Shown here one piece after another: positions 38,200 through 39,272 of a stretch of DNA of 64,000 nucleotides. This stretch comes from Dugong dugon (lineage: Eukaryota > Chordata > Mammalia > Sirenia > Dugongidae). Position 1 is the first letter of the stretch. Each line of letters opens with the position of its first letter. The stretch spans positions 44,869,501 through 44,933,500 of the forward strand of contig CM057482.1 in NCBI GenBank assembly GCA_030035585.1, read 5' to 3'. A model generated the notes under the pieces. That model was given only the letters and a program-made list of their open reading frames with translations, ran no database searches and was not told where the DNA came from. A program made the translations under genes and the position numbers.

Positions 38200-39272
38200 T
38201 GTGATGGTTAAGATTGTACGTCAACTTGGCTAGACCATTATTCTCAGTGTTTTAGTAGTTGTATAATGTGATTACCCCCATGATGGAATCTGCTGAGTGG
38301 CACTGGCAGAGGCAGGGCCTGTGGCAGCTCACCACCCTCTCAGTTTCATCTCTCTGCCTTCCGCCAGTGACCTTCTGCCTGCTCGCCTTGCCAAGGTTTT
38401 TGGCTTGTTCCAGACTCAGCAGCTGCCTCTTGTTGTCTCACCTCCAGTTCATGGGAGTTGAGATAGCAGCTTACCTGCTGATCTTGGAATTCGTCAAACT
38501 TCTCAGCCTGCAAGCAAGAGTCTGGTTCCCTGACCTGCCGAGCCTTAGGTTTGCCAGCCCCTGCAGCTATGTGAATCAGGAGAAACCTGACTGTCTTGTC
38601 TGCTGATCTTGGAATTCACTGACCTTCACAGCCTGTGAGCGGGAGCCCCTCTCCGACCTGCTAACCTTGGGTTCACCAGCTTCTGTGGTTACGTGAACTG
38701 GGAGAGGCCTCTACCCTGATCTGTGGGCTTGGGATGTTTTAGCCTCTACAATTGATGGGGGTTCCTTGGATCAAGTCCTGAAGAAAGCCGGAAGAATTCC
38801 CAAACAAATTTTAGGAAAAGTTAGCATTGCTGTAATAAAGGGACTGACTTACCTGAGGGAGAAGCATAGATTATGCACAGAGATGTCAAGCCCTCCAACA
38901 TCCTGGTGAACTCCCGTGGCGAGATCAAGCTGTGTGACTTTGGGGTCAGTGGGCAGCTCATAGACTCCATGGCCAACTCCTTCATGGGCAAGAGGTCCTA
39001 CATGTCACCAGAAAGACTCCAGGGGACCTCACACCATCAAGAAAGCAGTGCCAGGAGCAGAGCGCATCCTTGGGACTGGGGTCCCTGTGCCAAGAAGCTC
39101 CTAGGCCAGGGGAACACTGATGAGAGGGACAAGAGAGAGAGAAAGCCTTCCTCTAGAGCTGACACCCTGAATTTGGACTTTTAGCCTACTTTACTGTAAG
39201 GAAATAAACTTCTCTTTGTTAAAACCATCCACTTGTGGTATTTCTGTTACAGCAGCACTAGTTACTAAGACA
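38200..39272 (+). mobile_element. Hybrid LTR carrying a MAP2K1 fragment
   Basis: Starts 'tgtgatggttaagattgtac' like the ERVL LTRs and follows them to 'agcctctacaa' at 38750. MAP2K1 sequence follows (38754-39029). The last 240 bp end 'tctgttacagcagcactagt' and '...actaagaca', a MaLR-type LTR terminus with 'gaaataaa' polyadenylation text. The unit has TG...CA ends and flanks 'aatcc' (38195-38199) and 'aacca' (39273-39277); the uninterrupted L1-B reads 'acaaaacaaccagtaa' at this point. So it inserted as one piece into the L1-A 5' UTR. Confidence 0.8.
38754..39029 (+). pseudogene. MAP2K1: MAP2K1 (MEK1) kinase-domain fragment, intronless
   Basis: MEK1 phosphorylates ERK in the RAS-RAF pathway. 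The translation starts '[20 protein letters not shown]' and '[15 protein letters not shown]', loses one base near 38872, and reopens at 38873 as '[20 protein letters not shown]' with HRD, DFG and the two activation-loop serines ('SMANS'). It ends 'YMSPERLQG'. [15 protein letters not shown] and MSPERL fit MEK1 rather than MEK2. It covers roughly residues 147-237, about a quarter of the protein, with no introns, so it came from mRNA. Changes include Glu-to-Lys in GRIPEQ and FVGT to FMGK. Not a functional kinase. Confidence 0.9.

Follow-up and report, generated by a model that had tools for sequence, protein, structure and literature searches.

We conclude that positions 38200-39272 of the window (the 64,000-nucleotide stretch of the Dugong dugon genome analyzed here) form a single inserted unit, composed of a piece of an ERVL LTR, a piece of spliced MAP2K1 (MEK1) mRNA, and the end of a MaLR LTR. 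The three-part composition, the ends, and the intronless state are all confirmed. The unit is best read as a chimera that arose in reverse transcription from a host mRNA and RNAs of two LTR families and that was integrated whole. For the comparisons, the unit was cut into pieces, each of which was searched against one assembly (3.16 Gb). The features are as follows.

37895..39782, plus strand: host repeat broken by the unit (putative L1 5' UTR), its extent as matched to paralogues at 3396-3690 and ~43780-44870
38195..38199, no strand: left copy of the target duplication, AATCC, with 2 substitutions relative to AACCA, from the paralogous empty sites
38200..38753, plus strand: ERVL LTR positions 1-554 (putative U3), from the genome search and fetched copies; the G at 38754 is common to MAP2K1 exon 4
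38754..39028, plus strand: spliced MAP2K1 (MEK1) mRNA piece, exons 4, 5, and 6 plus the first 21 nt of exon 7
39022..39028, plus strand: GGGGACC, the 7-nt microhomology of the right junction, common to MAP2K1 exon 7 and the start of the MaLR part
39022..39272, plus strand: putative MaLR R-U5, from the cap site predicted from TATA distance to the CA end; AATAAA at 39203-39208 is kept
39273..39277, no strand: right copy of the target duplication, AACCA, from the paralogous empty sites

The unit has the TG...CA termini of an LTR and a 5-bp target duplication, as found at ERVL solo LTRs, with flanks (aatcc/aacca) that mismatch at 2 of 5 positions. Paralogues of the host repeat occur within the window, and three copies (in fetched loci L026 and L014 and at 44 kb of the window) lack both the unit and exactly 5 nt. 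Therefore, the unit entered in one piece with a 5-bp duplication; the target reconstructed from the three empty copies is GAAC[AACCA]GTAA. A scan of 37000-41000 against Rfam at gathering thresholds gave no matches. The first-pass annotation had described one TG...CA unit with 5-bp flanks inside a repeat, with which the empty sites agree, and had read it as an ERVL-like LTR, intronless MAP2K1, and the 3' end of another LTR, which is borne out by alignments of all three parts. It located the junctions correctly but not to the exact point: the right one lies at 39022-39028 rather than ~39029, and the left one at 38753/38754.

The MEK1 part (38754-39028, 275 nt) aligns end to end with exon 4 (78 nt), exon 5 (52 nt), exon 6 (125 nt), and 21 nt of exon 7, exon numbers being taken here as those of the human gene. 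It differs from the spliced exons by 8 substitutions and a 1-nt deletion between 38867 and 38868. In protein comparison, MEK1 outscores MEK2. The genome search with this part returned seven candidates, all of which were scored: the unit, the three parental exons (exons 4, 5, and 6 on contig C25, at 96, 98, and 96%), and three weaker kinase matches (80, 81, and 87%). Among these seven there is no sister copy or other MAP2K1 retrocopy, nor a second LTR context for the MEK1 part. The piece is frameshifted and without a second copy, and is not a captured gene that stayed intact and spread. It lies in sense orientation relative to the LTR, in agreement with the requirement for RNA templates.

An intronless kinase fragment might have been left by LINE-1 as a MAP2K1 processed pseudogene within or beside older LTRs. 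We consider this very improbable: the piece lies between sequences of LTR elements, as in an LTR-mediated retrocopy, and the unit as a whole has LTR-type TG/CA ends and a 5-bp duplication. Both ends of the piece are internal to the mRNA, the 3' end falling inside exon 7, so the mRNA 3' end is not included. By eye, neither an A-tail nor a target duplication of its own is visible around the piece; this check had been proposed at first pass, and its outcome argues against an ordinary pseudogene. Moreover, MEK1 is flanked by two families and not by one interrupted LTR. Plain insertion of MEK1 into a single LTR was also considered and was ruled out, as the left and right sides belong to two different LTR families.

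The ERVL part corresponds to positions 1-554/555 of an LTR that elsewhere in the family is 642-649 bp long (24 of 28 rows, those in which the script located the end). Besides the unit, the best 40 of 9646 candidates include 39 matches at 91-94%, of which 33 cover query positions 1-555 and the remaining six cover 8-555, 1-554, 3-555, 1-556, and 1-569 (twice). Fetched ordinary copies continue for ~92 bp with a TATA-like GATATAAA and then an end such as CCTAAGACA; these last ~92 bp are missing from the unit, which is therefore not a whole-length ERVL LTR. Because it stops ~17 bp ahead of GATATAAA, the ERVL part is read as a putative U3. The polypurine tract caaggggtggac precedes 9 of 28 ERVL LTRs, and a tttggtac or tctggtac stretch, read as primer-binding-site-like, follows 8 of 28. 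Exact 5-bp flanks occur at 7 of the 12 solo-type LTRs (L006, L007, L010, L011, L019, L025, and L026, of which L010 and L011 may represent one duplicated insertion) and flanks with a one-base mismatch at four (L002, L003, L008, and L029); those of L016 do not match. L010 (C26:121092272) and L011 (C26:121678961) are 0.6 Mb apart on opposite strands with the same flanks, as if in an inverted regional duplication. Older relatives of the same LTR (67-83%) occur in the window at 15056-15446 (minus strand) and 18153-18220.

If the unit belonged to a propagated family of chimeric LTRs, some matches should continue across the seams. Among the best 40 of 9646 candidates, all 39 other ERVL matches stop before the body of the MEK1 sequence, and none touches the MaLR part; the seven candidates of the MEK1 search show no LTR context besides that of the unit. 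A sister differing by ~7% ought, we argue, to outscore plain LTR copies. We found no point in support of such a family and consider its existence extremely unlikely.

The MaLR part comprises the 3'-terminal 251 bp of a MaLR LTR and is at most 94% identical to other copies. In the genome search, the best 40 of 4068 candidates comprise the unit and 39 others at 92-94%, all aligned from query position 1-3. For 11 of the 12 MaLR LTRs in the fetched loci, the first aligned position of the unit is 39022, and for the other it is 39023. Under looser BLAST, six MaLR alignments start 2-18 bp to the left of 39022 and some partial copies later; the early starts were dropped by the stricter alignment. A TATA-like string, ATATAAAA in 8 of 12 copies with variants in L014, L018, L015, and L022, lies 30-32 nt (first base to second G of GGGGACC) upstream in 11 of 12 copies and 20 nt upstream in L022, the count covering 12 copies, as the script did not pick up L028, the thirteenth one listed. 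Counted to 39022, the distance is about 29-31 nt, mostly one less. The MaLR part is probably R-U5, since its start, GGGGACC, sits ~30 nt past the TATA-like box in 11 of 12 LTRs. The MaLR U3 with its TATA box is absent from the unit, homology beginning at the predicted R, and the part does not qualify as a MaLR LTR. The MaLR LTRs at L022:3006-3502 and L015:6427-6932 share the same R-U5 and have other sequence just upstream of the TATA region.

Divergence of the three parts is of one order. The unit branch is 3.7% for the ERVL part (against 28 copies), substitutions amount to 2.9% in the MEK1 part (8 of 275), and the branch of the MaLR part, estimated against eight copies other than its closest ones, is 6.0%; the nearest MaLR relatives differ by 6% pairwise. 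The higher value of the MaLR part counts against the origin that we propose below. At usual mammalian rates such divergence corresponds to tens of millions of years, and no date is claimed. One assembly was examined, and an error fusing three sequences might be suspected; however, the parts diverge from their relatives to a similar degree, the left seam is at an exon start, the right one is at the predicted start of R and has microhomology, and the outer ends are LTR termini flanked by a target duplication. We regard such an error as scarcely credible.

At the right seam, exon 7 CTCCAGGGGACC meets MaLR GGGGACCTCA with 7 nt in common, GGGGACC, which is the switch-point microhomology seen in LTR-mediated retrocopies; with equal bases, the chance of an overlap of at least 7 nt is 3.8e-4. 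This seam lies where the R of MaLR is predicted to begin, which suggests a misdirected first-strand transfer. At the left seam, ERVL ...CTACAATT is followed by GATGGGGG, the exact start of exon 4 (in the gene, GATGGGGG directly follows ..CTTAG), and the overlap is 1 nt only (the G at 38754). The exact coincidence of this seam with the exon 3/4 splice site favors splicing of a proviral read-through RNA.

Based on these features, we think it reasonably probable that the unit is a one-off chimeric LTR for which ERVL read-through RNA was spliced into MAP2K1 exon 4 and MaLR strong-stop DNA was then misdirected via GGGGACC. The following steps would account for the observed composition, boundaries, and empty site and for the lack of a sister copy in the searches made. 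A sense-oriented ERVL provirus upstream of exon 4 would have yielded a read-through RNA, in which a cryptic donor at position 554 of the 3' LTR (ACAATT^GC/GT...) was spliced to the normal exon 4 acceptor, joining U3 to exons 4-5-6-7. This chimeric RNA would have entered an ERVL particle together with a MaLR RNA. From the latter, tRNA-primed minus-strand strong-stop DNA (U5-R) would have been copied. First-strand DNA copied from MaLR RNA stops at the 5' end of R, and normally its 3' end would anneal to the R copy at the opposite RNA terminus. The chimeric RNA would have had no matching 3' R, and the strong-stop DNA may instead have annealed to MEK1 exon 7 by GGGGACC, the 7 nt with which R begins. 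Minus-strand synthesis would have proceeded through exons 7-6-5-4 and then the ERVL U3, and plus-strand priming at the ERVL polypurine tract would have defined a new LTR, U3(ERVL)-MEK1-R-U5(MaLR). This LTR would have integrated with a 5-bp duplication and would be a solo LTR today; a full provirus with the chimeric LTR is hypothetical. We favor a strong-stop accident because the joint is at the predicted end of R, because the two sides share the bases with which R begins, and because an ERVL polypurine tract would prime at the outer left end; a single strand of this kind would yield U3-MEK1-R-U5 directly. The unit is without both TATA boxes, that of MaLR (left of R) and the TATA-like one of ERVL (right of 555), a loss that would fit a copy that never spread.

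Some observations weigh against this model. The putative provirus-host splice donor is weak, with ATT on the exon side and mostly GC on the intron side: after ACAATT, ACAACT, or ACAGTT, the next bases in 28 distinct ERVL LTRs are GC in 20, GT in 7, and AC in 1 (L025 was not caught by the pattern); the position of the donor as such is counted in favor of the model. The MaLR cap site is a prediction from TATA distance. Exon 3 lies ~16.6 kb upstream of exon 4 (protein match), and in the 12.8 of ~16.6 kb of intron 3 that were read, a search for a donor ERVL of matching type gave only an older MaLR LTR (74%) and a ~120-bp relic with ERVL-like ends. As a side observation, the MAP2K1 locus has older MaLR sequences in sense orientation (L039:4619-7107 and L041:6688-7198, LTR matches 74-83%), located past exon 7 and within intron 3.

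Two minus-strand template switches, from MaLR strong-stop DNA onto plain MAP2K1 mRNA and then from MEK1 to the U3 of a packaged ERVL RNA, would need neither a donor provirus in MAP2K1 nor a weak splice donor. In favor of this route, TTCCTTG at 38762-38768, which is 8-14 nt to the right of the left seam, recurs with a 3-nt shift in 5 of 7 aligned ERVL copies. However, the left seam itself shares only the single nucleotide, and exact landing on an exon start would be a matter of chance, ~1 in 40 by simple arithmetic (exons of 78, 52, and 125 nt, with 1 nt of ambiguity). We view this route as possible and rather unlikely. The first-pass annotation had invoked a triple template switch; the chimera stands, and the triple switch is probably wrong, as one switch and one splice suffice given the seam positions. 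It had left open a one-off event or an active family, and the former is supported, no sister having appeared in the ERVL (best 40 of 9646) and MEK1 (7 of 7) searches.

The ERVL and MaLR families are joined elsewhere in the genome as well. The fetched loci were picked by their likeness to the ERVL part of the unit, and the fractions given here are not genome-wide. A 0.9-kb leader follows 7 of 28 ERVL LTRs (L013, L014, L021, L022, L024, L027, and L028); its assignment to MaLR is based on position, as downstream of it comes a MaLR LTR that has a polypurine-like tract of its own, and in L022 another MaLR LTR lies ahead of it. A MaLR LTR is reached in five of the seven loci, giving hybrid elements with an ERVL 5' LTR, a MaLR leader, and a MaLR 3' LTR (L027:3186-5255, L028:3208-5321, and also L013, L014, and L022). 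The L027 hybrid is bounded by an exact 5-bp duplication (aatac/aatac), and that of L028 by gtagg/gtatg. The joint between ERVL U5-PBS and MaLR leader is spanned in at least 40 places, L027 included (40 of 40 among the best 40 of 7876 candidates). No MaLR polypurine-like tract occurs in the 12 bp before any of 28 ERVL LTRs. Chance proximity of MaLR ~1 kb from ERVL LTRs was considered and dropped, as the intervening 0.9 kb is homologous in 5 of 6 loci compared, the exception being L008.

Inverted ERVL-MaLR composites, in which both outer ends are U5, are found at L012:4666-6819, L015:4605-6932, L013:2246-6367, L014:1978-6549, and L018:4613-7059. Their duplications are exact in L012 (tttgg/tttgg) and L015 (atact/atact), one base off in L013 and L014, and matching at 3 of 5 positions in L018. 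The internal joints vary from locus to locus, as if each composite formed anew. The hybrids, at 40 or more places, support co-packaging. We consider it slightly better than an even bet that the unit is one part of a fossil record, spread over the genome, of joint reverse transcription of ERVL and MaLR RNAs. This record would comprise the hybrids with an ERVL 5' LTR and a MaLR body and 3' LTR, the inverted two-U5 joints within 5-bp duplications, and a host mRNA that was spliced to a provirus and entered an LTR by misdirected strong-stop transfer.

Retroviral oncogene capture is modeled as read-through, splicing, and recombination during reverse transcription. The proposed history of the unit is similar in that a provirus-host chimeric RNA would have been packaged and joined to viral sequence in reverse transcription; it differs in that entry into the LTR would have occurred through first-strand transfer itself, and the 275 nt are frameshifted with no spread seen. 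Capture of KIT ligand and nectin3 by endogenous retroviruses has been described (PMC4299795). LTR-mediated retroposition of host mRNA, attributed to Tan and coworkers (via PMC5408686), resembles the unit in the spliced host mRNA piece, the element on both sides, the microsimilarity at the junction, and integration by the element's integrase. In the unit, by contrast, the host exons sit within an LTR, after U3 and before R, the sides come from two families, and the left seam is on a splice site. The chimeric cereal elements BARE-2 and Veju (PMC13317346, PMC1950507) are likewise new element forms attributed to strand switching between co-packaged element RNAs, in the LTR in the case of BARE-2. 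They are element groups, however, and BARE-2 gained sequence of another retrotransposon, whereas the unit is a mammalian single copy with host mRNA. For HIV-1 proviruses with asymmetric LTRs, the proposed origin is a plus-strand strong-stop transfer from one co-packaged genome to another (PMC9278108), as we propose for hybrids of the L027 type; the HIV-1 LTRs differ by a deletion, whereas those of the hybrids belong to two families. Among the titles and abstract openings listed in searches of open-licence papers, we found no report of an ERVL/MaLR hybrid or of host exons in a mammalian LTR.

If the proposed model is true, the seams record splicing, first-strand transfer, plus-strand priming, and integration in one fossil, and a host mRNA was placed inside an LTR rather than between LTRs. 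It is an old assumption that the nonautonomous MaLRs rely on ERVL machinery. With ERVL/MaLR hybrids, this reliance becomes testable by hybrid counts and joint mapping, and the fossil record of joint reverse transcription, if true, would provide sequence-level evidence for the movement of MaLRs in ERVL particles.
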